From contig OZ020515.1 of the NCBI GenBank assembly GCA_963971425.1, positions 4,084,678 through 4,148,677 of the forward strand: a stretch of 64,000 bases of DNA. Direction: 5' to 3'. This document shows positions 16,991 to 60,206 of this stretch, piece by piece. The stretch comes from Bryoerythrophyllum caledonicum (taxonomy: Eukaryota; Streptophyta; Bryopsida; Pottiales; Pottiaceae). Numbering within the stretch: the stretch's first letter is position 1; every line of letters begins with the position of its first letter. The position numbers and the translations under genes are program-made. Under the pieces are notes generated by a model. The model was not told the DNA's origin, did no database searches, and saw only the letters and a program-made list of their open reading frames with translations.

Positions 16991-17697
16991 AGCGAGCGGC
17001 GAGGAAGTTGGCACCGCAAAGCAACAACCGCGACGGATCCGCTCAAAGCGTCGCGCGCGAGAGGCTCGTGGAGATCTGGAGTAATAATTCACGCCGCAAG
17101 CTTATTCGGACTTCACTCTCGCTTCGCAGATTGCTCGTGCCTTGCATTGCAACAAGTTTGTGAGCTTATGGAGCTCCAGATTTGACTCACGCTTCCGGAT
17201 TTGGCATTGTCCCTTGTTGGTAGTAGTGCCATTGCAACTATCTAAGAAAGTCCAGATTGACAGGGTGAATGGTCTTCATTGTTGCAATTTTCTTGGGTTT
17301 GAGTTTTCTGGAGGCGACGATGTGCCGGGAATGAGCGAAGATCTAGTTGTGGTTTTTGAATTCTTGGGTTCACGAGGAGTGTGTGCGTTCCGGGTTTAGG
17401 GTTGCGTGAACTTGGTCGCTAGATTTGGAGGTTTTGTACCATTGTGAGGAGGTTGCGTGAGATTTTCACGTTCTGCTCCGTGAGTTTCGTTTGTGGGCGC
17501 TGATGAATTTTTCTGGTTCGTTTTTACTCAGGGCACGGGACTTTGCTTCCATGAGTTCGAGCTGAAGAAATTAGCAGAGCTGAACCGACAATCTTGACAT
17601 CGCTGGTAAGTTCGTGATCTTGATCGCGAGGTTATAGGATTCTCTCAGCAAGTTTCCAGCCGTAAACCCTTGGTTTCTTTGAGTGCAGGTGCACACA
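16991..17697 (+). promoter_or_regulatory. Probable leader and 5'-UTR intron of the methyltransferase gene
   Basis: The region is GC-richer than the spacers but has no start-to-stop frame of interest. A pyrimidine-rich tract and TTTGAGTGCAG end at 17688, nine bases before the ATG at 17698. This suggests a spliced 5' untranslated leader with the acceptor just before the start codon. Confidence 0.4.
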
Positions 17698-20600
17698 ATG
17701 GCCGCTCCGAAGTACTCCCGCATCGGGGAGCGCCCCGCTGGCCCCTCCGCCACGCTCATCATCGTCGGCTCCCTCCTCGTGGCTGGCCTCCTCATCGGTG
17801 CCTGGGTGTTCACCTCCCCCGCCGCCATCGCCGACGACGAGATCCAAATCCGCACCAACTCCCCAGACTCCAAGTTTCCCGTCGAAGAATCATCACACAC
17901 TGTAGTAGAAGACTCACCAACCGATGAAGAATCAGCCCCTACAGAAGAATCTCCAGTCGAAGAAGCCTCTAGTGAAGAAAACCCTACAGAAGAGTCTCCA
18001 GTCGAAGAAGCCCCTAGTGAAGAAAACCCTACAGAAGAGTCTCCAGTCGAAGAAGCCCCTAGTGAAGAAAACCCTACAGAAGAATCTCCAGTTAAAGAAG
18101 CCCCTAGTGATGAAAACCCTACAGAAGAATCACCAGTGAAAGAAGAATCACCGGTCAAAGAAGCATCACCAGCTGAAGAGGAAGCTGAGCCTGCCTCAAC
18201 GACCTCCGATGAAAGCACTGAAGAGACCGTCGAAGAGACGGTACCGACTTCCACGCTCCCTGAGGGGATCAATCCTGACGCGGAGCTGGACACGGACGCC
18301 CAGGAGCTGAACGCGACGAATTTCGAGACGCAGGTGGAGGAATCGCAGAAGGAGACAGGAACGACTGCTTCCGAGGTGAAGGAGAGTGTAGGAGGTGACG
18401 ATGAAATTCCGGACTGGAAGCTGTGCACGTTTGAGGGTGCCCAGGATTACATCCCTTGCCTGGACAATAAGGCCGCGATCAAGGAGCTCACGAGCACCAA
18501 GCATTACGAGCACCGCGAGCGTCACTGTCCGTCCCAGGAGGACCTGCCGCTGTGCTTGTTGCCGTTGCCGAGCCACTACAAGGTCCCTATCAAGTGGCCG
18601 GAAAGCCGAGACGCGGTACGAAACATTCTTCGTCATTGTGTGCACAATCTTCTCCATAGTTTGTGTATTCTTCGCATCATAACAACTGTCTTCCGTTTGC
18701 GTGAGCTTCTTCATATTTCGTGCACGAGTATCAACAGCAAGAGACACTCATGTTTTTCTATGTTGTTTGCAGATTTGGTTTAGCAATGTGCCGCGCACAG
18801 AGCTGGCTTCCTACAAGTCGGATCAGAACTGGGTGAAGGTGTCGGAGAACAAGCAGAAGCTGATCTTTCCAGGCGGCGGAACGCAGTTCAAGACGGAGCA
18901 TGGAGCCTTGCATTACATCGAGTATATTGAGAAGGTAATTACGTATTAGGATCGGTAACTTCTCCTATTTGTTTTCATGGTTTGGCTCCATTTTACATGT
19001 TTTTCAATCAAGCCAGGAACTCAGTCAACCGATATACCGAGTGAAACGCGATATCCCTTCAGTTGTTCCAAACAATCAACTATCTGAGTTCAAGGACCTA
19101 GGTTGACTAAGTTGATATGATGGTTTCGTGTACCTATCACTTGTTCTATGTTCCTGATCTGGTGGTTGCACAGAAAAGCTTGCTGGCAATCACAGGTATG
19201 TTTATGTTTGGACCGGTGATTTGCTCATATCCCCTTTTTTTTTTGCGTCAGATTGTGCCTGATGTGGCATGGGGAAAGCACGTGCGCACTGTTTTGGACG
19301 TGGGCTGCGGCGTGGCCAGCTTCGGAGGTTACTTGTTCGACAAGAACGTGCTCGCCATGTCGTTGGCGCCGAAGGATGAGCACGAGGCGCAGATCCAATT
19401 TGCTTTGGAGAGAGGCATTCCTGCGATCAACAGCGTCATGGGCACACAACGCCTGGTTTTTCCGAGCAATGTGTACGATGTTGTGCATTGCGCCCGGTGC
19501 CGAGTTCCATGGGAAAACGAAGGTGAGAAAATCAGTCTCGTCACAAAACCACGCGTGAATATTTTCACCAAGTGTGCTCCTTCTGCATTAGTAGTTCCAC
19601 CTTTTTTCATGGGAAAAATATTACCATGGTTTGTGAACTTTGTTGCATTTGTATTAAAATTCTCTCGAAATCGTTTCTTGTGGATTCTTTTTGTTCTTTG
19701 GTTTGAGATGGATGTTGTTTTATTTTCCGTCAGGTGGGATGCTTTTGCTTGAGTTGAACCGTCTCTTGAGACCTGGAGGCTTCTTTATTTGGTCGGCGAC
19801 ACCCGTGTATTGGGACAACGTGAATGATACCAGGATCTGGAATGGTTAGAATTCACTCTCTTGCATTTTATGGAAGTTGTTTGCTACCTTCTCTTTCTTC
19901 TTCAACGCTCACTCTTAATTGCTATTAAATCAACGAAAGAGCTCGTTGGTCCCTTATTTAAAGGAGAGGTCATGAATCTTTGTTGCCTTTTCCTCTTTGA
20001 GCTCATGATTGACTACTTGGGAGCTACTGAGGGCTGAGCAAACAAGTCAAAGCTCATGGTATCTTTGCCTTACTTCATCAATTTTTTGTTGCAGAGACAT
20101 CTGACCTCCTCTCCAGAATGGAATGGACGATGCTCACAAGGTCCATTGACCCAGAGACTAAAGTTGGCGTCGCCATTTTCCAGAAGCCGAAGGACAATGA
20201 CTTGTACGCCCTCCGGAGACCTGATGTGCTTCCTCCATTCTGTGAAGAGGATGACAAGCCAGATGCTGCATGGTAACACCCCTACCCAAAATATTATGAA
20301 TTCATTTCATAGTTGTGAACTGGTACATAACTGAGTTCTTTCCACAGTCACTCAAAGCTTCATCAAGATACCCCTCTTTTGATTCATAATACCTCACTCT
20401 TAATAGCTAGTAGATCAATGGAAGTCTTAATTAGAACCCTCAAATTAAGTACCCTAAATGGCTACATTGAGCTTATGGTACCTTCACCGAATTTTATTTC
20501 TGTAGGGGTCATCTCACATGGCTTTTTGTACACTTCTAGGTACGTACCAATGAAGGCGTGTATGCACAAGATTCCGACTGGAGAAGGTGTGCGTGGAACT

Positions 20601-23246: not shown

Positions 23247-23828
23247 CAATAGGGTGACATTCAAATTGGCCGTTTAGTAGTTCCAGGGATAGTGTCCTAC
23301 ACTGCTGCCAACTTTGACACCCTCCCTAAAGCTGAGAAATTGTTATTTTACCATGAAAATTTGGGGACAGCATCATCTTTATGTTGAAAACATGCATACC
23401 AAATTTCAAGTTCAGGAGACTTATACAAAAAAACTTATGCAAGATCTACCAACATGGGATAGCTGTGAGAAAAGTGTCACAGCTGCCAACTTTGACACCC
23501 TCCCAAGAATTGAGGAAATTTTTTTTGCCCATGAAATTTTTGGAGAAAAAACTTTTTTATGTTGTTTGCATGTGTGGAAAATTTCAAGTCCAAAAGACCC
23601 ATACAAAAAATAATATTCCAAATCTACCAACATGTATAGTTTGGAGAAACAAAGGGGAAAACCATTTTACTACTTCCAACTTTGACGCCCTCTTTAGGAT
23701 TGAGTTTTTGTTGATACATAATGAAATTTTTGGCACAAGATCATCTCTACGCTGGTAACATGTGGGGTAAATTTCAAAGCCAAAAGATGTACACAAAAAA
23801 GTTATTCCATATCTACCAACGTGTATGT
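23247..23828. repeat. Left terminal inverted repeat of Tc1 element, three internal direct repeats
   Basis: This is the inverted match of 25446-26026. Within it the phrase CCAACTTTGACACCCTC begins three units at about 23307, 23486 and 23676, a spacing of roughly 180-190 bp. Each unit ends with ATCTACCAACATG. The transposase stop codon lies in the inner edge. Confidence 0.9.
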
Positions 23829-24823
23829 CCTCCATTAGCGTCAATCACTGCTAGTAACCTAGAGGGCATAGAATGACATAGTTGAAGGAGCTTTGTACCA
23901 TTGACTAACTTCCACTCTCTTTCAAGAACTACCTTCAACACATCTAAGCTTCTAGGGCATTGTTTGCCATGTTGCACAACATCTTTTAACATCCTCCAAA
24001 CGTTCTCGATTGGATTGAGATCGGGAGAGTTTGTAGGCCAGTTGAGCTTTTCGAGAAGGTGGCTTTGTCTCCATTCTTCACATATTTTGCTCCTATGGAC
24101 GGGTGCCCCATCTTCCATAAGCACTCCTTGTGGAATTTGATCCATGAAATGAACCAATTTGGCATCGTAATCCACTTCTATAAAATCCTTAGCAGAATGT
24201 TGACCTTTAGGCATAAAGACAAGTTCTGACTTTTGTCCTCCGGCAAATGCGCCCCAAATCATTAAAGAAGTCCTTCCACTTTTAAAAGTAGGAGCTAGAC
24301 AGCTTGATGAATAACGCTCGTATGCACTTCTCCAAACATGAATTTGCCGAGAATTTTTTCCAATTTCAAAAGTAGATTCATCTGTCCAAACAACACGCTC
24401 CCACTCTTTTGCACTCCATCCACGGTACTTCTGAGCAAAAGCTAATCGTTGAGACATGTGACGAGGTGTCAAAAAAGGTTTTTTGAGTGCAATTCGACTA
24501 AAAATGCCATTTTTATGTAAGACCCTTTGAATAGTACGTCTACACACTTGAGTAGGACATGCATTGGTAATCTTTGAGAGTGAAGAGCAACGATGAATTT
24601 TTGAGTAATGCACAATACTACGAACATCTCTATCACTAAGCTTTTTAGCGTGACTTCCACCACAAGGTTTGCGCTTGTAGGTTCCATCTTCTCTAAATGT
24701 TTTTACTAACCTTGTAACTGTTCTAATAGGAACTCCAATAGTAGCTGCAATTTGAACTCTTGTAAATCCTCCCTCACTCAAACCTATGATGCGTGCACGA
24801 ATTTCATCTGAAATTGCCATCAT
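23813..24823 (-). CDS. Tc1-family transposase (DD34E)
   Basis: The 336-residue protein would cut and paste the surrounding element. Residues about 5-105 contain two helix-turn-helix DNA-binding parts (VQIAATIGVPIRTVTRLV; then KKLSDRDVRSIV and CRRTIQRVLHKNG), as in paired-like Tc1 transposases. The DDE_3 catalytic core has D148 in VVWTDES, D238 in LMEDGAPVHRS and E273 in SPDLNPIENVW; 34 residues separate the last two, defining the Tc1 DD34E class. The C-terminus has LCHSMPSRLLAVIDANGG. There is no stop, frameshift or intron, and length matches active relatives. Starting at the second Met would change little. Confidence 0.94.
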   Translation of the reverse strand: MMAISDEIRARIIGLSEGGFTRVQIAATIGVPIRTVTRLVKTFREDGTYKRKPCGGSHAKKLSDRDVRSIVHYSKIHRCSSLSKITNACPTQVCRRTIQRVLHKNGIFSRIALKKPFLTPRHMSQRLAFAQKYRGWSAKEWERVVWTDESTFEIGKNSRQIHVWRSAYERYSSSCLAPTFKSGRTSLMIWGAFAGGQKSELVFMPKGQHSAKDFIEVDYDAKLVHFMDQIPQGVLMEDGAPVHRSKICEEWRQSHLLEKLNWPTNSPDLNPIENVWRMLKDVVQHGKQCPRSLDVLKVVLEREWKLVNGTKLLQLCHSMPSRLLAVIDANGGHTRW

Positions 24824-25445
24824 AAACTTATAGAGTGTGTGATGCTAGCTACAACAGTAGAGTAGGGGTTAGAGCAGAGCAAGGGGGAGAGAAGGGGGCC
24901 AAGGGGCTAGAGCATAGCAAAGGGGGTTGCAGGATTGACACGTGACAATTGGCAAAGGAAGGAGAACAGGGCTGGAGCAGAGCAAGGGGGCGAGAAGGGA
25001 GCCAAGGCGCTAGAGCAGAGAGGAGAGAGAAGGGTCGCCAAAATACAAGCCCATATGTATACATGAAAAATCGTTTTGCTCTTAATCACTCATCATGTAT
25101 GCCCAATGTGAATCAACACTCATGCATCCCACAATACAACACTTTGCGTTTTGAGGATTGTCTCAACATTCAGTCTATCACAAATCACACACACCATTCC
25201 CTTTACGTAGTGTTCAATAGATATTTAGAAGAAAAAATTTGTCATGTGTCTAATGCACACTTTATGGCCAAGTGGATTCTTCTGCATGGAACACCTCTTC
25301 ACTTCTTCATTTAGATGTTATTGATCTTTTTGAGAAGCATTTATGTTTGGTGGCTTACTCACATGATTGAGTTCAATGAAAAAGCATGAGGTGTCAAAGA
25401 TATTTTGACATTTTCAATATGACCTTCAAATTATTTATCATAGTT

Positions 25446-35664: not shown

Positions 35665-38541
35665 ATCATGTAATTAGTATTCAAAATCAATATCCATTAT
35701 TGTGGTTGCAGAGTAAAGAGAACTGGAGGAGTTGGCGAGTACGGTACTGTACATGTCTTTGTGCATTCGAGTTTTCCTTTATTTGTGCCAGAAAATAGAA
35801 AAGAGAAAAATGAAGGGCCTGAACAGTATGCTTTCCTCCGGAGAATAGATGAACTTGCCGTGGACTTCGTCAAGACGAGATTCGCTTCGTCAGATGATGG
35901 CCGTGTTCACTCGCCGCACCATTCTTGCCATGTTAGTGTTTCATTTTGTGGAGGGAGGTCGTCGCTTCTGCAGATGTCCCGATTTTCTTCTCTGGTCGAA
36001 GTCCTTGTTTAGAATCCGGAATCACCTTCTGTTTGTGTTTTCATTTGCCTAAATCATTGGCTAGGTGAACCTCTTCGAAGCATCGCATTCTACTGGTATG
36101 CTGTGCGAGAGGGAAACTCGCAGACTCTCACATGTAGATGTATAGTAGAGTGGGACGTTATGTGTATTACTCGTCTTTGCAGCTTTAGCTCAAGTTTTCA
36201 ACCATGGAGATTCAAGCTCTATATGGCCATTATGAGCGCCAGGTCGGATATCTCGACGTCACGGAAGAAAGGTTCAACAACTTCAAGAAAAGACGGCAGC
36301 AATTTGGTTCAAAGCTGATGGTTTTGGGAAAGCAGATAGAGAGCTTCATGGAAGGTTGCTGCAAAGATAAATGGGTCCAAGCTGCAATGGTGTTAACAAA
36401 CGTGTCGGAGTATGTTTTATCACTAGGTTTCGATCTGGCTCTGTGCAAGGTTGCGTTTGGGGAGGATCCTGCAGCTTCTGGATCCCTTACACCGGATGAA
36501 GTTGATAGCATGAAGAAATCTGAAGCAGAGGTTGTAGAACTCAAAGCTTCTGTGGATGGCCAGCTCCTAATCAAGGAAGTGGTAATTCCTTAAGTGGCGA
36601 GGATCGAGATATAAAGGCAAGGGATACGAATACCACATATTCAGACTTAACTCGCAATACTGGAACCAACAGGTGGATGCCTCCTGAAGTCATTGGATTG
36701 TCGGATGGAAATAAAAGAGGCATGGCAAAACAGCCATTCAAGTTGGACAATTATAGTTTTGGACTGGTGTGCTATGAGATACTGGTTGGTCGTGTACCTT
36801 TCTATTAATATAAGTCTGCATACGAGGTAAAGAGGAGGATATTGAACAAGTATAGAGGAGGATATTGAACAAATATAGAGGAGGATATTGAACAAGGAGT
36901 GTCCAAAGTTACCTCGTAAACCAAAGAAATGTCCTCTTATGTTGAAGGCTTTGATTGAGAAATGTTGGAGTCATGAACCTAAAGAGCGTCCAACATTTGG
37001 TGTGATCTGTAGGGAGCTGAAGTATATAAAATACTGGTTGATGACAGGTAACGATCACCAAACACAATGTAGAATATTTTGTTGATGTTAGAGCTTTCAA
37101 AACTCATCAGCTCCCATGTTTTGTTTTTACTTTGGTTTGTAGTCCTGATGTTGAGGTGTGGACATGAATCTCAAATGTAACAGGTGGACTGATGGAGGAT
37201 GGTGTGGATGATAGCCGAATGCGAGAGAAGATTGCTAATGTTGATGCTGTCAATTTAAGGAGTTCGCCTAGAATATCAGAGGGCCGGTCCTCGCTCGATT
37301 CAAGGAGTTCGCGTGATTCATTTGAGAGCCGGTCTAATCCGGATCCAAGTAGTTCGCGTAATCGAGTTGAGAGCCCGTCTACGTCGGTTCCAAGGAGTTC
37401 ACGTAATCCAGTTGAGAGCCCGTCTACGTTGGTTCCAAGGAGTTCGCGTGCTCTCTGATTGGGGCAGCTACGAGAGAGCTTGGAAGGATTGGATTACAAG
37501 TCGATCTTTCAAAGTGTAAGGCATTAAAGGAGCTTCTAGTGAGCATGGGAGGATTGGGATCTAGTGAACATACCCTTTGGTGATGTCACTTTTGTAGTTA
37601 CATACTTCAAAACGTTCTTGTCTAAGTTTTTGGAGAAATTTCTGTCTAAATGGATGTTATTTTAATTGAGTAATAAGATAGCTCAAGTTTTGGGAACACT
37701 CGAAGGGGGTGCATAAGCCGGAAAGGGTCCACATTTAAAATTAGTTTACCACTGAGGTGTTGAAGCGATGTCTCCTTACAACACTCATGAACATACTCCA
37801 GACCATTTCAAAGTGCACTGACTGCAGAAACCAGTGATCTTTAATTGAGATATGATGGAGGTCATATCTACAATCTTGAGTCAAAAACAAACGATCACCC
37901 ATAATTTCAAGCAAAAAAAATCATGCATTTCTTCAGCTGAAAAGTCTGGAATGCATTGTATCCCACAGCTGTAAGAAAAAGCATTGGGTTGCTAAGAAAG
38001 ATGGTTAGAACCTGAGTTGCTGGAAAAGACGCAGTCAAAGATTCAATGCTTAACCCCTGAAGGACCGTGACAATTCCACACCAAAAACACTTCAAAATTG
38101 GTGATTCTAGTGCAATGAGCAAGGAAGGAAATAAACCCTTGTATTTATACTTTTAACCGTAGGATCTCAATTAAGATTTACTAAGTAACATGCTCACCAA
38201 ATTTCATATACTTTGACCGCACGGATTGAAAGATAATAGTGTTTGAAGTCAAGAAAATAATTCATTTTCTTCCCTGCAATCAATGGATCAGAAGACTTGG
38301 ACTTCACTTGGTATCAAAATTTTTCACTACACAAGGTCTAACTCTTTTACCATTGTGTTAAGCATGATGTGAGTTCCCTAATCACCAATTTTTAGAGGTA
38401 GACAAGGGGTGTAGCATATTCAAAACAAGTGTGATGAGAGTGGAGGTTCAAAAATTGTCAACTCACGTTTGATGTTTTGGTGAACTTAATATGTTTTGGA
38501 ATGATGATCCCAACAATCAATAAGAAGTTCTCACCACATAT
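35665..38541 (+). repeat. Duplicated kinase locus, copy A (left part)
   Basis: This interval is collinear with 56880-61028. Both share AATTAGTATTCRAAA at the left edge, the exon-like block TTTGTGCCAGAAAATAGAAA, the kinase gene, its 15-residue repeat tail and the following MITE family A copy. Copy A lacks about 600 bp around the start codon and about 550 bp of the kinase core. Its right end is split by the MULE insertion and resumes at 48778. Confidence 0.9.
36204..37459 (+). pseudogene. Protein kinase pseudogene (paralogue of 57878-60206)
   Basis: The N-terminal helical region is open (36204-36593: ALYGHYERQVGYLDVTEERF ... MVLGKQIESF ... CKVAFGEDPA). A deletion then joins the codons after LIKEVV to the segment just before DLTRNTGTNRWMPPEVIGL. 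This removes the ATP-binding loop, catalytic Lys, HRD and DFG-equivalent. Further down there is a stop after GRVPFY, and a 24-bp unit (AGAGGAGGATATTGAACAA...) present three times at 36830-36898. The repeat tail has only two full 15-residue units and ends early at 37459. It cannot encode an active kinase. Confidence 0.9.
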
Positions 38542-38745
38542 CAGGAATGCTATCTTGTGAGCGGTGAGCACTGAATTCATGACAATTTTTACCATTGTTT
38601 TTGTTGTGAAATTAAAAAGAACACCTATTGCCGTGAGTGTAGGTGGATTGTGCTTCAAAAAAAAAAAAACATAAGAGAAATTCTTGACCTGCAATCGCTT
38701 TAATTTATAGTTTATTGAATAGAGGCACCTATAGCCGTGGCACTA
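38542..38745. repeat. Left terminal inverted repeat of MULE
   Basis: It begins CAGGAATGCTATCTTGTGAG and contains GCACCTATAGCCGTGG near its inner end. Both have inverted partners at 48580-48767, with a degenerate AT-rich middle. Confidence 0.8.
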
Positions 38746-39225
38746 TTATTAGAATTTTGGCGAAAAATTACAACTAAAAGTAATTTGATAAGAGATAATG
38801 TAACATATATTACAATGCAAACTGGTATTCCAAATAATATCGATTTTATATGTCATTAATGGGGGAAAAGTACATCTATAATCCCCTTATTTTCTTGTAC
38901 AATAGAATTAAAAATATGGAGATAAAGTACATCTATTCAACTATCTAAATTGTTTTACTGCAAATATCATAAGTCGATGGATAAACATCGCTTGAATAAC
39001 TCTCCGAATTGCAGTAGAAGAATTCTCTCGGATGTGTATTACTATTCTAATTGAATCAAATATGTAGTACTATTCTAATAAATATCAAGGTGCATGAAGC
39101 GAATTGTATGAAGTGAACATGTTATATGGATACAAAAGACGAATGAAAAAAAACAACAAAACAAAAACAAAAAATTTGTTGTGCTACAACTGCACCTACC
39201 CTGTATCTAAACTACACCAAGCGGA

Positions 39226-39543
39226 ATGGGGTGGGTCTCTCAAGGTCCTTGTATACCCGACACTAGCACCCGAAGGCTGCCACCGCAGTATCAATTGCGA
39301 CTCGAGAAGACCAGGCCATCCGGGCTTGTCACTAGAGGTATTGGTGGTACTCAGCCATTATATAGTACACCTCACCAATCGATATGGGATTTTGGGATTA
39401 TGGAAATTTCTGAAAGAAGGTTCAGGGTGCCAAATGGAGAGAATGATAGTGATGGACCATCTAAAAATATTCGAAACTTTGTAAACTATTCATGGTGTGA
39501 TAAAGGTATAGTTCTAATTTCAAAAACACATTATAACAATTGA
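39226..39543 (+). CDS. Hypothetical open frame inside MULE
   Basis: A 105-codon frame, partly GC-richer than its surroundings, encodes a polar protein (for example PPQYQLRLEKTRPSG, HQSIWDFGIMEISERRFRVP). I recognise no domain. It lies between the left inverted repeat and the end of the methyltransferase gene, on the opposite strand. It could be an exon of a third MULE gene or chance. Confidence 0.25.
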   Translation: MGWVSQGPCIPDTSTRRLPPQYQLRLEKTRPSGLVTRGIGGTQPLYSTPHQSIWDFGIMEISERRFRVPNGENDSDGPSKNIRNFVNYSWCDKGIVLISKTHYNN

Positions 39544-39712
39544 TTAAAATCCATCAATGAAGTATCATTTTTTATCTATTAGATTATCTAACTAGAGTAC
39601 AAACATTTATGTGATTGAAACGAATAATCATATAAGATATGCAAGGGTGATATATATCTATTAATCCAAAGCCTCATATTAGGTCAATACGGCATACAAA
39701 ATAGAAGAATCA

Positions 39713-42700
39713 CTACTCTTCACTACTGAACTCATCGTCACTGCCCTGATGGATAAACGGCATACTTCTATCTGAACGACTATCGGAATCAGTACTAGCC
39801 TCCTCAGCCTCGTCATCCACAAAATCCTTTGCTCCAGAGCCAGATCGAGTAGTCGGTGGACGTCGTGGAGGCGACGGCTGCGCTACGGATGCAATGGCAG
39901 CAACTTCGGCATATTCAGGCAAAATATGCTGCTGCTCTGGACTCACAACCTTCCCTGCCAAGCGAGCCAGCACTCCAGCAGGAGGTGTTGACAGAGAAGC
40001 CGTCAACGACGTCGAGAACCGTCTGCAACAAATTTTCATTAGTATAATACCAATGATAGAAAAAGATAACAAACAAAACAAATAAAGGAAGAGAATTTAC
40101 TTACAAGTTCTCTTAGGCGTAGTCTTAATCTCTGGTTCATCATCACCAAGCTCCAAAGGGCGCTTGAGAGAAGTCTGCTCCATGGGCTCAACAATCACAG
40201 AATTAACCTCCAACGTCTGTGGAATCATGGGTCGAAGCACCTCGTCTACCAAGTCCTTGTCTGCCTCCAAGGCAAGAATATGACGCTTGAGGGCTTTGCA
40301 AGCCTTGATACTTGCACCTAGAAAAAGTGTGGATTGCAAACACTAATAAATTAGAAACATGGTTGAATAATAAAAATAAAATGAGTAAATGAAATGCAAA
40401 TACCAGTAGAAGCAGTGAGGTCCATGACGATCTCATCCTCCTTGGTGCAAAGATCAATAAGAGCCTCCAACAAATTCTGCGACTTCTCTCTCGTTCCTCA
40501 CCATGGCATCCCGGTGGAGGCTCTCACTGTCAGTGACTCCTGGGTGATGAAGTTGGTCAGATGACCATCTGAAGAGAGCTCAATCCCATTCGCCAAAAGC
40601 TCCACTCTGTCATTGAAGACAAATGGAGTTGGAGGATCCGCCTTTCGAAAGAATCACTTGACCATGAAAGTCTTGTGTACGCAACCGGTGCGAGCATCAG
40701 AGAAGAGGGGAAGTCCATTGATGGCGAACCACTTCCCCTCTTCGTCAAATCCCGACCACTGAGCCCAAGAAACCAGTTCATTCGAAATGAACCTGGAATC
40801 TGGATAGAACACGATGATAGCTCCTCCATCACGAAGAAATGACTCTGCCAACTCGAAGTTAAACCGAATCCACAATGATTCTTTCCGACCCTTGGGGGTC
40901 GACACTGTAGGTAGTGTGTTCCATGGTGGAATCACAGTACCACCCTGAATGCCTGGAACTGGCAAGTCCTCCGGGACGTCAAATATGAACATATCCGCCA
41001 AACTATCCTAAGTGAACTCCCCCTTCATGTACCGCGACTTCGATCCTCCATGGGCCATTAACCACTGTATTATATCCCTCCAAACTGGCGAAACGTCATC
41101 TTCAGCTGTAACTGAATCATAGTCAGTAAAGATAGAGTAAACGCTGGTATTGATTACCTCAACAGAAACTATGGACTCTGTCTGCTCCACGGCAGGAATC
41201 GAATAGATGGTCTGCGCTGGTTTTGCAATGAATACTCCTGGGCGGCTGCTGGCAGATGGAGAAGCGCCAAATGTTGTCAATACAGGTGTCGGCTGTGAGA
41301 ACGATCCAAGACCCACGGCAGACAACAATTTCTCGGGCCCCTCCTTTGCCACCAGAGCTGCCAATTCCTTGTTCCTCACTCGAGTCTCTTTCTTCTCCTT
41401 CTTTGCAGTCTCCTTCAAACGGGCCGCTTCTTGCTCTGCTCCTCTAGTTGCAATCCTGGCCGCCTTCTGTTTTGCCTTCTCCTTCGCCTTTTCAGAGAAC
41501 TCAAGGTCAGGCTCAATCTGGAATGAAGCTGCAGCTTGCAAAGCTGGACCCGCACCAGAATGTTGAGCCAAGGCATTACATGACTCCCAAAGCTCCACCT
41601 CGTCACCTGGAGTTGGAGTTGAATGCCAAAACTCTAAGTACCAAGGACACTGAGCCAAATGATGCCGAGTAAAACGGCGCAGCTGCGACTCTGTGAAGAT
41701 GCACTCAGCGCTAACTGTGGTATCACACCACTTCCTCAGCCGGATTGGCAACTCCCGAGGCTGCAAAGCTCCGTTGGCAACGAGCTCTCTCCAAAAATAT
41801 AGGAGCACCACCCTCTTGACACTTTGAGGTGTCTCTGGCTGCTTGAGAATGTCATCAGACTTCACGAACGGCTTCGTCCCATTGAAATGGTTCTTGAACG
41901 CCTTCTTCTAGAATGTGAGAGAGTTGGCATCCACCGAAGAGCCAATATCGAGAACGGGGTTGGGGAGACCCTCCATCCTCATGGTGATGTTGTCATCATT
42001 CACGACCTTGGCAAATAACTTCTCAGCCTCCTCCTCAAGCTATACAATGAAAACAAAATGTTAGTGAACAAAACTAACAACTGATTGACAAATAAAACAT
42101 GAAACGAATTAAGAAAAATGAACTTATCCCTGCCCAAAATGATGCCACTTCAAGCCAGGGTTTCAGACTGATCTCCGAACATGGTGCTTTTGGAAAATTG
42201 AATTCATCCCTCCCCTCCTTCGACAGATTCCACCAACGCATCCATCTACCTTTGAACCTCGCAGAAACCTTGGAAGTGCAAAGCAATTGCAACTTCTCTG
42301 TTGTAATTTCGGGCTTGTTCTGATAAACATCATAATGATGAAGAACCTAAATCAAACGACAATAGAGAAGTGGTCAATAAAAAAGATATAATCATTAAAA
42401 AGATATTGAATGGAAAAGTACAAAGAATTGAATAAACGACTACCTCTTTGAAAAACTCTTCACCATTACGAGGGTCAGCAATGGCAAGAAGTCGGGTGAG
42501 TAAGGTGGCACATTGAGTCTTCTTCTTTTGCACCGCTTTGGAGCATAGAGTGACCAACTCCGCAGAGCTCCCAACACGATCAGCCCCAACACCGGTCACA
42601 AGTGTGTCACGGTAAGATCGAATACAATCTTTTGAGCTGCTATAAGCTCCCGCTACACGAAGAATTTTTTTTTCTGTGTTGGTGTACTTTGCCAAACTAA

Positions 42701-43794
42701 TTCAATAACATTGCATATACGTATTCTGGGGCATAGATAACAGCATAGAGTACACAATGATGGACCGAATTTAATCCCAACGTACCTCATAGAGTAACTT
42801 CAAGAATGAATCGAAGGTCATATGGTGCCACTTTTTGGTGCCCTTTCTAGCCCACTCCGCCACACTAGCATTATGATCCTCTTCACTAATCAGACCCTTG
42901 AGCTGATCGAAGTCCAACAATCCAAAATGTTGAACTCTCTTCACATCATGTGACAGTTGCTGTGTCACATGGTCGGAGTCTTTCTGCCTAAGTGACAGTG
43001 TTCATGAACTTCAAAGTCATGCGAGAATAACAAAAGAAATACAAAACTATTGAATGAGACAAACAAAAAAAGGAAATAAAGAATAGAACTCACTTGTTCC
43101 AGTCCGTCATGGCGTTTAGTAATATATGACGGTTCACCAATGTGGGCTCTAATAAAACTGCCCGAAACGGAACATGAAAGGCATAATTGTTTCTGTGCAT
43201 GGTGGATATGACATCCATCTATACAAGATGGCGGTGGTTGCCATCCCACACAAAAAAGTAACGATCAGAAAGGCTGCGCAACTCTGGCCTACTCGCAATC
43301 AAAGCCTCAAACTTCTGGTCCTCCGCCCTCCAAAGGTCTGACCATCCCTCACGCTCCTTAGGCAGAACTTCCCGTTTGACCATGGAAAAATCCTTCAATG
43401 CAATATAGAAACATGCAGATCCTGGGCGGTAGCCTTTGACAAACTAGCTCTTCAGCTTCTCTATGTCCGGTTTCACTGAAATACGCACCTCTGTCATTGG
43501 CACCATTCGGCAGAGTGGGATGTGCAACTCCCCAATAGAAGGACAATGAGACTTCTGGAGCACACCGTAGGAAGTCCCACGAATGGACTTCCTCAATGAA
43601 AGCTCTGTTGTGTCTAAACCGGGATCCACCCCCAACACTGGTATAACTTGCAGGACTAAACTCGAATCAGCATTTGGCAATCTCGAAGTCTCTGGCGCCG
43701 GTGATCCTGAAGCCCCTGGAGCCGAAAACGTGTCCTCACTAGGCATTCCCAAGTCCTCAATTGGCGTTACCTCGTCTCTATGCAGTGACTCCAT
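39713..43794 (-). pseudogene. ParB-like domain fused to beta-class N4/N6 DNA methyltransferase (broken)
   Basis: Seven exons can be traced (minus): 43794-43094, 42987-42786, 42696-42444, 42346-about 42130, 42039-40404, 40317-40105, 40022-39713. The N-terminus is ParB-like: CRMVPMTEVRI, IEKLK, then FFVWDGNHRHLV with the DGNHR motif at 43245-43231. A charged Lys/Glu/Ala coiled-coil-like stretch lies at about 41560-41330. The C-terminal part has the order of a beta-class DNA methyltransferase: IFDVPEDLP (where DPPY is expected), FLRDGGAIIVFYPD, then LLEALIDLCTKEDEIVMDLT continuing to ASTGASIKACKAL, matching the motif I DPFxGSGT region, and ALEADKDLVDE. The tail has LKRPLELGDDEPEIKTTPKR (nuclear-signal-like) and an acidic end. 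Stops at 43444, 43219, 41908, 41008 and 40654 and a frameshift near 40520 disable it. It would have methylated DNA, perhaps that of its own element. Confidence 0.8.
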
Positions 43795-43854
43795 CTGATG
43801 ACATCCAGTGTTAATTATAAGGATATACAAACAACAGCATCAAAGTCTTGCTTT

Positions 43855-46297
43855 TCTAAATTCAAGCAATAAAATCAAATGCAACGAAATATGATGGAAG
43901 CAACAGCACAGAAGTTGAAAGGAGCAAGATACGACTTGAACGGAGCATGACATAAAAAATCAGCACTCCTCACAGTACCTCGGATCCAAGGGACCCGAGG
44001 CTTCCTCCAAGTTCAATATTTTTTTCTTTTTAAACTCTCATAACTATACGCTGAATAATCGAAACGCAGACCTTATCTAAAAGAGAATTGAAAAAACAAA
44101 GATCACATCCCAGCTTTAATAAACATTCAATCCAGGCATCACATGATCATTAACAGCTCAAGCACCAGACGCAAAAGGTATCATGAGCGAAGTTCAAGTT
44201 TAATGCCGAAAACAAAAAAAAATCAAACATCAGCACTCCTCACAGTACCTCGGATCCGAGGGACTCGAGGCTTCCTCCAAGTTCAGTTTTTTTTTCTTAT
44301 CACACTCTCATAAGTATACGCTGAATATTCTAAACAAAGACCTAATCTAGAACAGATTTGAGAAAACCAAAGATCACATCCCAGCTATATTAAAAAATCA
44401 ATCCAGGCATCACATGATGATTAACAGCTGAAGCACGAAACGCAACTAGTATCATGTGCGAAGTTCAAGTTGAAAGCCAAGAACAAAAAATAAAACATAA
44501 AAAATCAGCACTCCTCACTGTACCTCGGATCCAAGGGACCCGAGGCTTCCTCCAAGTTCAAATTTTTTTTCTTGTCACACTCTCATAACTATACACTGAA
44601 TATTCTAATTGCAGATCTAATCTAGAACAGATATGAGAAAAACAAAGATCACATCCCAACTTTATTAAAAATTCAATCCACGCATCGCATGATCATTAAT
44701 AGCTCAAGCACCAAACGCAAAAGGTATCATGTGCGAAGTTCAAGTTTAAAGCAGAAACCAAAAAAAATTAAAATCAATCATCAACACTCCTCACAGTACC
44801 TTGGATCCGAGGGACCCGAGACTTCCTCCACGTTCAGTTTTTTTTTCTTATCACACTCTCATAACTATATGCTGAATATTCTAAACGTTGACCTAATCTA
44901 GAATTGATTTGAGAAAACCAAAGATCACATCCCAGCTTTACTAAACATGGAATCCAGGCATCACATGATGATTAACAGCTGAAGCACGAAACGCAACTAG
45001 TATCATGTGCGAAGTTCAAGTTGAAAGCCAAGAACAAAAAATAAAACATAAAAAATCAGCACTCCTCACTGTACCTCGGATCCAAGGGACCCGAGGCTTC
45101 CTCCAAGTTCAAATTTTTTTTCTTGTCACACTCTCATAACTATACACTGAATATTCTAATTGCAGATCTAATCTAGAACAGATATGAGAAAAACAAAGAT
45201 CACATCCCAACTTTATTAAAAATTCAATCCACGCATCGCATGATCATTAATAGCTCAAGCACCAAACGCAAAAGGTATCATGTGCGAAGTTCAAGTTTAA
45301 AGCAGAAACCAAAAAAAATTAAAATCAATCATCAACACTCCTCACAGTACCTTGGATCCGAGGGACCCGAGACTTCCTCCACGTTCAGTTTTTTTTTCTT
45401 ATCACACTCTCATAACTATATGCTGAATATTCTAAACGTTGACCTAATCTAGAATTGATTTGAGAAAACCAAAGATCACATCCCAGCTTTACTAAACATG
45501 GAATCCAGGCATCACATGATGATTAACAGCTGAAGCACGAAACGCAACTAGTATCATGTGCGAAGTTCAAGTTGAAAGCCAAGAACAAAAAATAAAACAT
45601 CAAAAATCAGCACTCCTCACAATACCTCGGATCCGAGGGACCCGAGGCTTCCTCCAAGTTCAGTATTTGTTTCTTGTCACACTCTCATAACTATACACTG
45701 AATATTCTAATCGCAGACCTAATCTAGAACAGACTTGAGAAAAACAAAGATCACATCCCAGCTTTATTAAAAATTCAATCCAGGCATCACATGATCATTA
45801 ACAGTTTAAACACCAAACGCAAAAGGTATCATAAGCAAAGTTCAAGTTTAAAGCAGAAACCAAAATTTTTTTTAAAAAAAAATCAGCAGTCTTCACAGTA
45901 CCTCGGATCCAAGGGACCCGAGGCTTCCTAAAAGTCCAGTATTTATTTCTTGTCATACTCTCAAAACTATACGCTGAATATTCTAAACAAAGACCTAATC
46001 TAGAACAGATTTGAGAAAACCAAAGATCACATCCCAGCTTTATTAAAAATTCAATCCAGGCATCACATGATGATTAACAGCTCAAGCACCAAACACAGAA
46101 GGTATCATGTGCAAAGTTCAAGTTTAAAGCAGAAACCAAAAAAATTAAAATAAAAAATCAGCACTCCTCACAGTACCTCGGATCTGAGGGACCCGAGGCT
46201 TCCTCCAAGTCGAGTATTTGTTTCTTGTCGCATTCTCAAAACTATACGCTGAATATTCTAATCGCAGACCTAATCTAGAACAGATTTGAGAAAAACA
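43855..46297. repeat. Tandem array of nine ~275-bp repeats with a palindromic GC core
   Basis: The core CCTCGGATCCRAGGGACCCG recurs in units whose CAGCACTCCTCACAGTA-like marker starts at 43961, 44231, 44516, 44782, 45057, 45333, 45608, 45884 and 46159, spaced 266-285 bp. Units 3-4 and 5-6 form an exactly repeated 551-bp dimer as far as I can see (44516-45056 against 45057-45607 region). The array sits between the methyltransferase start and the transposase exon, where the two genes diverge. It ends abruptly inside transposase coding sequence at about 46297. It is not a CRISPR array (no spacers). Confidence 0.93.
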
Positions 46298-46298
46298 A

Positions 46299-47935
46299 GT
46301 GCCTTCAACAAGCCACCACGAAGAGCATTCTACCAGCATTCAAGATCAACACATTGCACTTTGCAGGATTTGGAAGAACGCGAGATCTCAAGAAGAGGCT
46401 GAAGCAGAGTACAACGTCATTCGTGGATGGTGGATTTCATCTGGGGCCACTACCGAAAGCGGGCGTCGTGCACTGGAAGATTGGATGGCTTTTTGGCATT
46501 TCCGATATAGACAATGGGGTGGAGCAATGCAACTAGTAAGTTCTTGCATTTTTTGTTTTTAAATATTCAGATTGTTGAAAAGTTATATGTGAACGATGTA
46601 CTGACCATTGCTGTATGATATCAGGACCTCACACTGGACGAGCGAGCTGACATGCCATCATGTAATCTTGCGGAGACAGTCCACAACCGCTCGCTTCAAC
46701 AGTCCGGGAATACCATTACATGTTTATATGCGGCTACCATGGATGATCTAATTCGGGCTTTCATGCAAATCACTTTGTACCAAGCATGGATCAATGGAGG
46801 GACCTCCGGAAAAGGTCCAGACAAAGGTACGCTTCGATTAAGATCTGCCCAAGGTTCTGCTGATCCAAGACTCATTGCAGAAGCTGTGCGGAGTTTTCCG
46901 GGGGCAGAGGATTTCTTGACAAAGACGGGCGGGCTTGTAGGAGCGGAGATTTTTGGGTCTACCAAACAGAAACTTGACATGCCACCCGGGTCCAACAACG
47001 ACTCCCACCGCTCCGATACGGTGAACTATTCGATTCCACAAGATGGCAGAAGGGTGACTCGGCCGCGGATTGAAGAGGCCCTAAATGAACAAGGTTCCGG
47101 GGTGCGTCACACAACGGCAGTGTTGGAATCGGAGGTTGATCCGTCAAAGTGGCACATTGGTCAACTTCCGAAGACCTCCCACCAAAAGTGCCAGGCATTG
47201 CAAGCTCACACCGGTCAGAGATGTGACGCTAGAGTTGGGCGTGGGAGTCAGGGAACACCTGCCCCAACATATATTGGCAAGAAGAAGGAATTCAGGTCGC
47301 CCCGAAACACTGCTGTCGAGTTCTGGTTTTGTACTGATGATATTAGCCGATGCATGATGGATTCGAAGAAACCGTTTGTAGTGGATTGGCCATCAGTCCC
47401 AATGACATGGCCAGTGAAGCTTGGCACGAACCTAACGATGCAAGAAGTTTTATCGTTAGAAGAAGCAGATTTTCAGTTAGAGCAACGTGGTGCTTTGTCG
47501 CCTCGTAGACAATTCCAAGTAACTTTGAACATGCCTCTTCCGCGATCAAACTTCCCGCTTCTAGAGAATCCAGTCTCATACCATACTTTCCGCAACGGCT
47601 ACCAGATTCGCCGAAGTTCAGATGTGCCTTCCGTTGAGCACCGAAACAAGTGGTCAAGCGCAGCTCTGATGAAGAATTGCTACGTTACAAATGTCACCGC
47701 AATGCCGTATCCGAGATTTGGATGCGTTATCACTCTTCTCACGGAGAAGAAGAAGTCTTATTACATAACCTTCACAAGCTACCCTGCGTGTACATGTCCA
47801 GATTTCCTGAAGATGTCAGTGGAGGCGTTGGAGAAGAAAGGGCAATGGAAATACTGCAAGCATGTGTACTACATCCTACGCTATTTATGTAAGATGGACT
47901 ACAAAGAGGACTTATTCATGCATGCCCCAAGCTAG
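46299..47935 (+). pseudogene. MULE-type transposase, C-terminal half with SWIM zinc finger
   Basis: Two exons fit: about 46299-46535 (IWKNARSQEEAEAEYNVIRG ... WHFRYRQWGGAMQL) and 46625-47935. The second begins DLTLDERADMPSCNLAETVH, corresponding to the segment after the catalytic core in MULE transposases. It then has AFMQITLYQAW, PGAEDFLTKTGG, EIFGSTKQKLDMPPG and, at the end, a SWIM finger of CxCx(n)CxH form (YPACTCPDFL ... WKYCKHVYYIL). The second exon is fully open, 437 codons. The catalytic N-terminal half is missing because the tandem array abuts the first exon, so it cannot act alone as a transposase. From memory, related proteins are common in mosses and lycophytes. Confidence 0.82.
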
Positions 47936-48579
47936 AGCTTTATCGAGGTCATGCGCATTCTAGAGCTTGCTAATATTGTCGAGCAAGCATGAATCTCGCA
48001 ATGAAGTATCTTCTGAATAGTATTTCTATTTTGCAGTAGCTCATATTTGAACATGTGCATTGGTTTTTTTGTCACGTGTATGGCTAGTAGTCAATGCATG
48101 AGTGAATTTATCACTCGTACTTCTCTTCAATATACTAATTTATATTTCAATGTATCATTTTTTCTTATACATTATTTTAACCGACTTCACAGATGCTATG
48201 CTAGCAACATGTAAAAGTATGTCATGTATTGGCATCATATAACATCTCCAATTTTGAACCATGCAAACTCCATGTGGAGAGACGGGGTATCTTAATCCAT
48301 TGGACAATTGTTTAGAATCAAATATTAGAACATTAGAATATTATTTGTCCTAGACGTTGTTATTATAGCTATCACGATGAAATATATGACTCCACATCCG
48401 TTACTATTGGACTTCACAATCATTGTAAGTTTTATCAGATTGTATTCAAATTTTTTATTTGATTGTGGACTCTGTAATTTTAACCTTTTAATAAATGGAA
48501 ATATAACCGCGAGTTGATAGTCATGGACATGAGCGACGAAAGGGAGTCGCAAAAAAACGTCTACGGTTAGTGATTCCAC
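47936..48579. other. Noncoding 3' flank of MULE transposase
   Basis: AT-rich, with no open frame of interest. It holds the transposase 3' end and leads into the right inverted repeat. Confidence 0.5.
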
Positions 48580-48767
48580 GGCTATAGGGTACCTTCTAAG
48601 TTTAGAAAATTCTTTGAATTTCTCTCGCAAAGTTTGAGAGACTTATCGTTACTATCTGTGAAAATAAAAAAATTATGGAAAAAAACAACTTTTTTTTCCT
48701 GTTTTCAGACTATTTTCTGCTCACCGCTCGCCGCTCACCGCTCACTACTCACAAGATAGCGTTGCTA
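48580..48767. repeat. Right terminal inverted repeat of MULE
   Basis: Reversed, it starts TAGCAACGCTATCTTGTGAG, continues with four GTGAGCGG/GCGAGCGG words, and includes CCTATAGCCGTGG near 48583. It is paired with 38542-38745. Confidence 0.8.
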
Positions 48768-48777
48768 CACCACATAT

Positions 48778-56568: not shown

Positions 56569-57877
56569 GTGAGTCGTCGACCGTGGCTTGTCTGTACCGT
56601 GTGAGCTTCTTCTCAAGCTTCTGTGAGAGAGTACTAGGAATTCGGTTGTTCCTCGTCAGGTTCATGGATGGCGTTTTGCAGTTGGGATGCCCTGGTGAAG
56701 TTTACGTGGATTCTTGGATCTAGAGTTTTTCATTGCAGAGATATGCGGTGGGTAATTTGTTTTGCTCTGTAGGATGAGTTTTAGTTGCGAAGGTGTGTGC
56801 TCGTGAAGAGGGAGTTGCTTTGGTTTTCCTGGCTGTTCAGATCGGGATTCCTGTACTGATATGATATCGTATAATATTTTCTACGCAATATCGTATAATT
56901 AGTATTCGAAAAAACTATCCATTATTGTGGTTGCAGAGTACAGAGTACTGGAGGAGGTGGCGAGTACGTGACATATCTTTGTGCATTCGAGTTTTCCTAT
57001 ATTTGTGCCAGAAAATAGAAAAGAGAAAAATAAAGGGCCTGAACAGTATGCTTTCATCCGGAGAATAGATGAACTTGCCGTGGACTTCGTCAAGACGAGA
57101 TTCGCTTTGTCAGATGATGGTCGTGTTCACTCGCCGCACCATTCTTTCCATGTTAGTGTTTCAGTTTGTGGAGTAGTAGTTTCGTCCAGGTGGGGCGACC
57201 CGGCGATCTTCCAGACGATGGCGAGGGAGGTCGTCGCTTCTGCAGATGTCCCGATTTTCTTCTCTGGTCGAAGTCCTTGTTTAGAATCCTGAATTACCTT
57301 CTGTTTATGTTTTTATTTGCTAAATCATTGGCCAGGTTAAACTCTTCGAGGCATCGCATTCTACTGGTATGCTGTGCGAGAGGAAACTCTCATGTAGATG
57401 TATAGTAGAGTGGGACGTTATGTGTATTACTCGTCTTTGCAGCTTTAGCTCAAGTGTTCAACCTTAGCGCTGCATTACGGATTGTGCACGTTCGGGTGTG
57501 GCTTGTGTGGGGATGTTTGTTGTTCTGGCTTTACTTACAACAACTGGACGGTTGCAACAGTACGACTACTTTCAGTGTCTGGCGTCAATTAGGTTTTGAC
57601 GCATGTGAAAGGTCTTGGTTTGGGAGATGTCAGAGATTGTGTAGTGTGTTCCGTGGCTTGGAGAATTTTAGTTGATAAAATATTGACTTGATCGTCTTGT
57701 AATGCTTTCAATGTGGCCAGTATTCTTTCGCGATGTTCAAGGAGTAGAGCTTGAAATGGATATTTTTTGGACATGAAGATCAACCAAACCAATGCCAGGG
57801 TTTGAATGAGACGTGTTTAAAGAGCGTTGCATTGCCTGTGTTACTAGGTTCACTGATTGCCGCCAGAGTATCTGACC

Positions 57878-60206
57878 ATGCCTCCGAAGAGCCGCATGGA
57901 CACCCTGCCTCCGATGAGCCCCATGAGGGTGCTGAGTCCCATGTCCCCTGGCATAGTTGGGAGCTCTTTAAGCTGGAGATACCTTAAGGTTGCGGAGGAG
58001 AGTGCGGAGACTGTACAGAAGAGGTCTGCTGAGATTAAGTTTAACAAGCATCAATGCGCGTATTTACATGACAAGCTCTATATGGCCATTATGAGCGCCA
58101 GGTCGGACATCTCGACGTCACGGAAGAAAGGCTCCACAACTTCAAGAAAAGGTGGCAGCAATTTGGTTCAAATCTTCGAGCTCCTGATGGTTTTGGGAAA
58201 GCAGGTTGAGAGCTTCGTGGAAGGTTGCTGCAAAGAGAAATGGGTCCAAGCTGCAATGGCGTTAACAAACGTGTCGGAGTATGTTTTATCACTAGGTTTC
58301 GATCTGGCTCTGTGCAAGGTTGCGTTTGGGGAGGATCCTGCAGCTTCTAGATCCCTTACACCGGATGAAGTTGATAGCATGAAGAAATCTGAAGCAAAGG
58401 TTGTAGAACTGAAAGCTTCTGTGGATGGCCAACTCCTAATCAAGGAAGTGGTACTTTCACTGAATTCCTTAATTGGCGACGATCGAGATTTAGCCAGTTA
58501 TCTACTTCAAAGACTTTTGAAGATTAACCGTGATCCCTACTTTGAAAATAGGACCCTTTTGAACATTTTGTTTGATTGGGTGAAAGGTGGAGAGCAGCTC
58601 GGGTCAGGTAATCAAGCCACTGTTTTCAAGGCAACGTGGCTTGGAACACAGGTTGCAATGAAGACATTCACAGGACCAGAGAACAAGGATTTCGAGCGTG
58701 AAGCTCGGATCTTATCACGATTATGTCATCCTAATATCACATCGATGTTTTGTTGTACAAAGAACCCGCGAAATTGTTCCATCATCATGGAGCTGATGGA
58801 TGGAGATCTCCCTCGGCTAATTGACGAGAGGTGTCAGGATAGTCGTGATTCCCTTCCATTTCCAATTTTGGAAGCAGTGGACGTTATGCTTCAAATAGGG
58901 GAAGGTGTGAAGTATCTCCACGATCAAGGCATTGTGCACCGTGACTTGAAGTCAAAGAACATTCTCTACAAGATTGTGGAGGTGATGAATGTTGGAAATA
59001 AACATGTCCATGTCAAAGTGGCTGACTATGGGATTTCAAAGGCAAGGGATACGAATACCACGTATTCAGACTTAACTCGCAATACTGGAACCAGCAGGTG
59101 GATGCCTCCTGAAGTCATTGGATTGTCGGATGGAAATGAAAGAGGCATGGCAAAACATCCATTCAAGTTGGACAGTTATAGTTTTGGAATGGTGTGCTAT
59201 GAGATACTGGTTGGTCGTGTACCTTTCCATGAATATGACAATGCAAAGGAGGTAAAGAGGAGGATATTGAACAAGGAGCGTCCACAGTTACCTCGTACAC
59301 CAAGGAAATGTCCTCTTATGCTGAAGGGTTTGATTGAGAAATGTTGGAGTCATGAACCTAAAGAGCGTCCAACATTTGATGTGATCTGTAGGGAGCTGAA
59401 GTATATAAAATACCGGTTGATGACAGGTAACGATCACCAAACACAATGTAGAATATTTTGTTGATGTTAGAGCTTTCAAAACTCATCAGCTCCCATGTTT
59501 TGTTTTTACTTTGGTTTGTAGTCCTGATGTTGAGGTGTGGACATGAATCTCAAATGTAACAGGTGGACTGATGGAGGATGGTGTGGATGATAGCCAAATG
59601 CGAGAGAAGATTGCTAATGTTGATGCTGTCAATTTAAGGAGTTCGCCTAGAATATCAGAGGGCCGGTCCTCGCTCGATTCAAGGAGTTCGCGCGATTCAA
59701 TTGAGAGCCGGTCCAATCCGGATCCAAGTAGTTCGCGTAATCCAGTTGAGAGCCCATCTACGTCGGTTCCAAGGAGTTCACGTAATCCAGTTGAGAGCCC
59801 GTCTACGTCGGTTCCAAGGAGTTCACGTAATCCAGTTGAGAGCCCGTCTACGTCGGTTCCAAGGAGTTCACGTAATCCAGTTGAGAGCCCGTCTACGTCG
59901 GTTCCAAGGAGTTCACGTAATCCAGTTGAGAGCCCGTCTACGTCGGTTCCAAGGAGTTCACGTAATCCAGTTGAGAGCCCGTCTACGTCGGTTCCAAGGA
60001 GTTCACGTAATCCTGTTGAGAGCCCGTCTACGTCGGTTCCAAGGAGTTCACGTAATCCAGTTGAGAGCCCGTCTACGTCGGTTCCAAGGAGTTCACGTAA
60101 TCCAGTTGAGAGCTCGTCTACGTCGGTTCCAAGTAAGGCACTAGAGGAGCTTCTAGTGAGCATGACCATGGGAGGATTGGGATCTAGTGAACATACCCTT
60201 TGGTGA
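57878..60206 (+). CDS. TKL-like protein kinase with helical N-terminus and 15-residue repeat tail
   Basis: Two exons (57878-59426, 59563-60206) join in phase to give 730 residues. The N-terminus (1-230) is helical, with VESFVEGCCKEKWVQAAM and SMKKSEAKVVELKAS; it is reminiscent of four-helix N-domains of plant MLKL/DUF1221-type kinases, but that is tentative. The kinase domain is about 238-515: glycine loop LGSGNQATVF, VAMK lysine at 262, HRDLKSKN at about 354, ADYGISKA with DYG replacing DFG, and RWMPPEVIG. All catalytic acidic residues are present. The tail has nine SSRNPVESPSTSVPR units and ends SSEHTLW. Two compensating frameshifts relative to copy A alter about residues 68-100. ATG 57878 is the first in-frame Met after a stop at 57854. 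Confidence 0.85.
59727..60131 (+). repeat. 45-bp minisatellite, nine units, in kinase tail exon
   Basis: Nine units of 45 bp encode SSRNPVESPSTSVPR with almost no divergence. The paralogue at 37350-37441 has two units. The unit length keeps the frame, so copy number only changes tail length. Confidence 0.95.

Follow-up and report, generated by a model that had tools for sequence, protein, structure and literature searches.

Why should a DNA transposon carry, opposite its transposase, a gene that joins a ParB-like domain to a methyltransferase-like one? The question is raised by positions 38542-48767 of the 64-kb window (the whole stretch of DNA analysed here), which the initial annotation described as a 10,226-bp insertion with inverted ends and a 10-bp target duplication. 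That description is borne out. The 10,226-bp insertion is flanked by CACCACATAT at 38532-38541 on the left and at 48768-48777 on the right (10/10 match on boundary comparison), and its terminal inverted repeats lie at 38542-38573 (plus strand; 8 bp followed by CTATCTTGTGAGCGGTGAG) and 48736-48767 (minus strand; with GCGGTGA/GCGGCGA heptamers). Compared at 38543-38574 and 48735-48766, the repeats are 81% identical over 32 nt and form the longest among the pairs listed for the region; each end reads CTATCTTGTGA, then heptamers of the GCGGTGA/GCGGCGA type. A PF03141 gene is also present in the 64-kb window and, with the general style of the genes, points to a plant, probably a bryophyte.

Relatives sharing these ends, for which the initial annotation had proposed a genome search, proved abundant. 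In the genome (437 Mb, 894 contigs) the 19-mer terminus CTATCTTGTGAGCGGTGAG has 1,856 matches at up to two mismatches (919+937), against 0+2 for the reversed control, which argues that these family termini are not chance matches. Eleven relatives (E1-E11) were fetched as tidy plus/minus terminus pairs, a choice that favours complete copies; ten are complete and E11 is partial, its transposase end being known from the separate terminus locus L007 alone. Comparison of the flanks of 11 elements (E1-E10 and the window copy) found a 9-11-bp target duplication in 10, two of them with one mismatch, placed 7-9 nt outside CTATC, and found none at E9. Mismatched flank pairs scored as high as true duplications in 2/110 cases; two elements with a common target account for at least part of this.

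The transposase is represented in the window by a C-terminal exon (46619-47935, plus strand; a reading frame of 438 codons), with a CxC...CxH cluster that looks SWIM-like by eye and a premature stop where relatives continue, and by the last 65 or so residues of a preceding exon of about 700 residues (46341-46535, plus strand, from alignment to relatives). In E5 the transposase is uninterrupted to its end, those of E4 and E8 have one frameshift each, and the CxC...CxH arrangement is seen by eye at the C-terminus in several copies. Profile scans of transposase pieces matched Transposase_mut in three of the six scanned, with a best E of 0.22, below the cut-off, and matched neither the MULE profile nor the SWIM profile PF04434. 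What had been called a SWIM-type MULE transposase half is a C-terminal half on the plus strand, for which the profiles support the labels 'SWIM' and 'MULE' weakly. We assign the family on the 9-11-bp duplication and the weak Transposase_mut match, with no strong profile match, and these features support the view that the window element and its relatives are transposons with Mutator-like features. Typical MULE terminal repeats are long, and those of this family are short by comparison. Sola transposons make 4-bp target duplications, a length at odds with the 9-11 bp found here.

On the minus strand the window retains all seven exons of the second gene (hereafter the ParB-MTase gene), from 43794 down to 39716, with exon coordinates taken as alignment edges. 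Exon 1 (43093-43794), which likely begins at a candidate ATG at 43794, encodes a predicted ParB/sulfiredoxin-fold domain with the motif WDGNHRH and has two in-frame stops. It is followed by exon 2 (42783-42983), exon 3 (42444-42653) and exon 4 (42128-42346), the donor of whose following intron is mutated. Exon 5 (40402-42039) holds a coiled-coil/basic region and a putative beta-class methyltransferase-like domain, with motif IV reading DVPE at about 40969-40980, and has four stops; exon 6 (40100-40315) encodes the end of the methyltransferase fold, after motif I (ASIKACKALKRHILALEAD), and exon 7 (39716-40021) an acidic/Ser-rich tail. A short, weakly conserved third frame, rich in Ser and acidic residues, lies between the two genes. 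Six stops interrupt the ParB-MTase gene, the donor of intron 4 is mutated, and the transposase ends early and keeps little of its N-terminal exon; this copy is dead, the degenerate remains of a transposon that had two genes and Mutator-like features.

The relatives show how regular this anatomy is. The initial annotation had considered a multi-exon ParB/methyltransferase gene on the opposite strand to be no ordinary MULE cargo, and had proposed that copies of the family lacking it would speak against a true association. The seven-exon gene is present in 10 of the 11 fetched elements, on the strand opposite the transposase and diverging with it from a shared middle, with just the 3′ part remaining in E1 and E3. 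A copy of the kind envisaged does exist: E10 lacks the gene, and the array described below as well. E4, E8, E11 and the window copy share their intron positions. Uninterrupted copies of the gene, whose existence the annotation had proposed to test, were found in E4, E5, E8 and E11, whose aligned exons have no stops; E5 alone among the fetched relatives has both genes uninterrupted. At the first 30 exact termini listed, all on contig C1, coding sequence within 1.5 kb belonged to the ParB-MTase gene in nine cases, to the transposase in 13 and to neither in eight.

Selection on the two genes is alike. For the pairs E4-E6, E4-E9 and E6-E9, dN/dS is 0.106, 0.130 and 0.146 in the ParB-MTase gene and 0.126, 0.145 and 0.143 in the transposase, with part of the divergence of E6 and E9 unconstrained because both carry stops. 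By region, across four pairs, dN/dS is 0.083-0.137 for the ParB exon, 0.042-0.086 for exons 2-4, 0.100-0.162 for the N-terminal half of the methyltransferase, 0.099-0.173 for its catalytic region and 0.245-0.397 for the tail. The ParB-MTase gene is maintained by purifying selection of much the same strictness as that on the transposase; we hold this two-gene anatomy and its selection to be close to certain. Chance cargo is ruled out by the constancy of the gene in the family together with dN/dS: the gene is a constant family component and not a captured scrap. E4 and E5 differ by a dS of 0.004 and the family has therefore moved recently, and E2 is a mosaic whose ParB-MTase gene is near that of the window (dS 0.285) and whose transposase is far from it (dS 1.05).

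The initial annotation, which read the element and its ParB-MTase gene rightly, overlooked a tandem array directly upstream of that gene, made of 8.5 copies of a 275-bp unit (43952-46298, found with TRF). It contains a candidate ParB-binding palindrome, CCTCGGATCCGAGG, first at 43978-43991 with one mismatch and then at eight further positions (starts 44248, 44523, 44799, 45074, 45350, 45625, 45901 and 46176), and the palindrome is not found in the remainder of the 64 kb. At up to two mismatches there are nine sites in the window copy, nine in E1, six in E2, 11 in E3, three in E4, five in E5, four in E6 (one of them outside the array), eight in E8, six in E9 and seven in E11, and none in E7 or E10; mononucleotide shuffles predict 0.35 over 143 kb. 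A motif-free count of palindromic 20-mers (at least 9/10) in nine elements gave 36 between the genes, in 32 of the 111 kb, versus 4 elsewhere. E7, which has the ParB-MTase gene, offers one strong palindrome of the TTTCGGATCCGAAA type, with other arms, and one weaker. All seven one-mismatch sites of the window, some of them copied by array duplication, differ by C-to-T or G-to-A, a pattern consistent with, though no proof of, mutational decay at methylated cytosines.

Across the genome CCTCGGATCCGAGG occurs 1,654 times at up to one mismatch, against 14 for the reversed pattern. Among the 50 distinct sites listed, 45 are on the inner side of a terminus and no more than 20 kb from it, and eight of the 50 are also less than 20 kb away on the outer side of some terminus. 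The 13 clusters that the listed sites form include nine in the inner position, for which circular shifts give a mean of 0.16. The exceptional sites number five, in four clusters, and we examined three of them, in two clusters. In these two clusters, chosen by palindrome alone and away from termini, the palindromes lie between ParB-MTase and transposase genes, and no terminus is recognisable in either stretch.

Around the palindromes the arrays turn over quickly. Periods in relatives are 244, 241, 221/139, 275 and 126 bp, and among the seven elements with a usable unit, identity between units is within 0.06 of the shuffled-spacer level in every pair except the near-identical E4 and E5. Units of the window and E8 are likewise unrelated, though their genes are close (dS 0.2).

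More diverged relatives suggest that the site can change and keep its symmetry. Two came from a scan of prokaryote contigs: L051 and L052 are deposited as part of a cyanobacterial MAG, and we read them as eukaryotic contamination because they have exons and introns. L051, from another organism, has the same seven exons, with 51-64% identity in the methyltransferase exon, and upstream of its ParB-MTase gene stands the palindrome TGGGTCTCGGATCCGAGACCCA, its arms changed yet symmetric. In L053, where identity to the gene's exons is 26-43% and the catalytic part is gone, a different main palindrome occurs in nine copies between recognised exons, with GTAGGATCCTAC-type sites upstream. We compared seven site groups, taken from seven of the 12 loci at which sites occur; E2, E3, E5 and E8 were omitted as near-duplicates and E7 as degraded. 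Arm position 2 changes from C-G to T-A and position 4 is T-A, A-T or G-C, with pairing in 7/7 groups at both; positions 3 and 5 pair in 5/7 and 4/7. This symmetry supports the candidate site and is not independent of it, because symmetry was among the criteria by which sites were chosen; core identity in the same comparison is circular and its shuffles are mononucleotide. Two scans of viral contigs, narrow because one short peptide pattern was the sole query in each, found no relatives.

How good is the case for a ParB-like protein? Pfam saw neither ParB nor an N4/N6-methyltransferase in the window copy, for which support comes from relatives, and the Pfam ParB profile did not match the ParB-like domain. 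The best Foldseek match of a structure model of the fold has a weak E of 0.03. A GxHR-type phosphate-binding motif is typical of the ParB family, and the corresponding WDGNHRxxAW motif has G, N, H and W invariant, and R nearly so, in 39 sequences. Model and motif together support the prediction that exon 1 encodes a ParB/sulfiredoxin N-domain fold. ParB proteins recognise palindromes, which often lie next to the genes that encode the proteins, and here too parS-like sites lie near the gene (E7 being a weak case), with binding putative. We consider it probable that CCTCGGATCCGAGG is the binding site of the ParB-MTase protein. The family resembles bacterial ParB/parS in the ParB N-domain fold and in the repeated palindromes beside the gene. 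It differs in the methyltransferase-like fusion, in its eukaryotic transposon host and in having no recognised ParA.

The gene type itself is already known, since it has been published for the Ectocarpus element Sola1-1_Ec32, where a 1,104-aa ParB plus N4/N6-methyltransferase gene lies opposite the transposase of a 21.5-kb element; the account, in the part that describes this element, also cites green and red algal ParB-methyltransferase transposon genes and suggests that such proteins may form a new class of accessory factors, able to bind the transposon that encodes them and to modify it (PMC12477816). Both families have a ParB-like plus N4/N6-methyltransferase protein of about 1,100 aa encoded opposite the transposase of a large DNA transposon; by description, to which the comparison is confined, the carrier is a Sola element there and Mutator-like here. 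In the passage on Sola1-1_Ec32 there is no mention of an array of binding sites, a test for selection or an altered motif. A Mutator-like carrier, the palindrome array, evidence of selection and the D[VIM]PE motif discussed below were not found in the literature searched, whose scope excluded preprints and most subscription papers; a term search of the text covered from PMC13317346, PMC12695648 and PMC6446971 gave no mention of ParB.

The closest functional parallel is VANC, the anti-silencing protein of VANDAL21/Hiun in Arabidopsis, whose VANDAL carriers are also Mutator-like (PMC10398659; PMC5735166). As described there, VANC binds tandem repeats in noncoding DNA, where a short motif is surrounded by quickly diverging sequence, and it removes silent marks from its own family (PMC10398659). 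The window family shares a Mutator-like carrier, an accessory gene and quickly diverging noncoding tandem repeats around a short conserved motif, here the putative target of the protein. VANC is not described in that account as a ParB or a methyltransferase, whereas the present family has a palindrome and a predicted ParB fold, and its anti-silencing role is putative. The family thus appears to join VANC-like anatomy with ParB/parS parts. Fungal DNA transposons carrying TET/JBP genes are alike in encoding a DNA-modification-type enzyme, which is proposed to counter silencing, and unlike in enzyme, fold and hosts, as far as the portion describing them goes (PMC12730594).

We lean somewhat towards a reading in which the ParB-like protein recognises its own element through the palindromes, and so counters silencing or regulates the divergent promoters. 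The protein would dimerise on the palindromes, as ParB does on parS, and mark or coat the element's own control region, which would be kept from silencing or have its two divergent promoters regulated; it may thereby play the part that VANC plays in Arabidopsis VANDAL elements. That anti-silencing is the main outcome we judge an even question.

An alternative that gives the protein no epigenetic role makes it a transposition helper, which on the central palindromes would pair or bend the ends or regulate the divergent promoters, much as maize mudrB is apparently required for integration. The site array lies between the divergent genes and is common to both, selection on the gene resembles that on the transposase, and other MULE ORFs with different roles exist (PMC6446971, in the part covered). 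Against this, the palindromes are central and not terminal, and E10, which lacks gene and sites, has a perfect 10-bp target duplication and was therefore mobilised at least in trans. We regard this alternative as unlikely.

Self-methylation fares no better, and turns on the second domain. A beta-class motif order (IV ... X-I-II) and common fold (hhalign 97-98%, controls at most 1.3%) support a beta-class N4/N6-methyltransferase-like domain, an assignment by sequence profile only, since the structure model (pLDDT 48) is too poor for use. An active N6A or N4C methyltransferase might mark the GGATCC-centred palindromes and protect or activate the element, and self-modification is likewise suggested for the Ectocarpus homologue, in the passage concerned (PMC12477816). 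The conserved fold order, purifying selection on the catalytic region, an acidic residue kept after motif I (by eye) and a GGATCC core that stays constant while the arms vary all speak for such activity. The catalytic motif speaks against it. Of 26 database relatives, 22 have D[VIM]PE as motif IV, canonically (D/N/S)PP(Y/W/F), and one has DVPK; three are unmatched and none is canonical. Ten yardstick enzymes have DPP[YF] (7/10) or DLPY (3/10), so the second residue is not strict, a point in favour of activity; the aromatic residue is kept in all ten and replaced in the ParB-MTase family, and motif I is altered to a DLTASTG-like form. We do not count the family among active beta-class methyltransferases for want of the canonical motif IV, whose replacement makes self-methylation doubtful and leaves the initial annotation's self-modifying transposon unsupported. 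On balance we expect no ordinary N-methylation from this domain, which is most likely a DNA/SAM-binding module or a seat of unusual chemistry rather than an ordinary N6A/N4C methylase.

Plasmid-like segregation or maintenance, in which ParB/parS would serve a present or past episomal stage, could draw on the ParB fold and the iterated palindromes beside the gene, and is improbable: the copies are chromosomal, with target duplications, and an unsystematic look recognised no ParA-like or replication gene in the fetched elements. MULEs commonly capture host sequence, yet capture of a chance host fragment, its palindromes a by-product of satellite growth, is least credible of all for a gene whose seven exons keep their order, which is under purifying selection across lineages with dS above 1 and which turns up again in a second organism, there accompanied by palindromes of its own.

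Self-recognition through the palindromes, the reading we prefer, has consequences for how such accessory proteins can be studied. For the published brown-algal ParB-methyltransferase no target site was proposed in the account of that element, and the present family offers a candidate one, together with many copies, recent ones with an uninterrupted gene, and a gene-less derivative as a natural control. It permits a testable comparison with VANC anti-silencing, and it raises the question of what role a methyltransferase fold has that is kept by selection after its catalytic motif has been replaced. Bacterial ParB is a CTP-dependent clamp that spreads along DNA. A tentative extension, to which we give less than even weight, is that a whole ParB/parS-like system has been co-opted, with a clamp that would load on the self-renewing array and spread, and a methyltransferase-derived reader or pseudo-enzyme that would keep the element transcribable. 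If true, prokaryotic parts for partition and modification would have been assembled into a convergent counterpart of VANC.

Outside the Mutator-like element, the window carries an uninterrupted Tc1/mariner-type transposase frame of 343 aa with DDE_3 and HTH_Tnp_Tc3_2 domains (23813-24844, minus strand) and pieces of a PF03141 methyltransferase gene (17683-19752, plus strand), the first of which contains a Glu/Pro-rich 45-bp tandem repeat (17937-18145). A protein kinase gene (57857-59464) is followed by ten copies of a 45-bp repeat (59680-60133), and a very similar 45-bp unit lies just outside the transposon at 37292-37450. The sequence CACCACATATTG is found at or adjoining the insertion point of both the window element and its relative E2 (L033/L034), and it is possible that the two targeted the same point of another repeat.

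Elsewhere in the family, short derivatives (L002, L017 and L018) have the family's termini in common; the L017/L018 termini are separated by about 190 bp, and TTTAGGG telomere-like repeats stand immediately inside the end of L002 and L017. Two transposon contigs of eukaryotic look, L051 and L052, are included in a metagenome-assembled genome labelled 'Synechococcales', which probably reflects contamination of that public record.

The diverged, catalytically deleted relative L053 carries nine GTGTGCCGCYRGCGGCACAC-type palindromes between its recognised exons (2535-3853). Within the 275-bp-unit array of the window element, a block of approximately 551 bp appears by eye to have been duplicated as a nearly exact copy (44523-45624), a sign of recent array turnover. 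Finally, a related reading frame of 198-224 aa is located near one terminus in both the relative E7 (L043, 1018-1689) and the locus L015, and may represent a third, captured gene.
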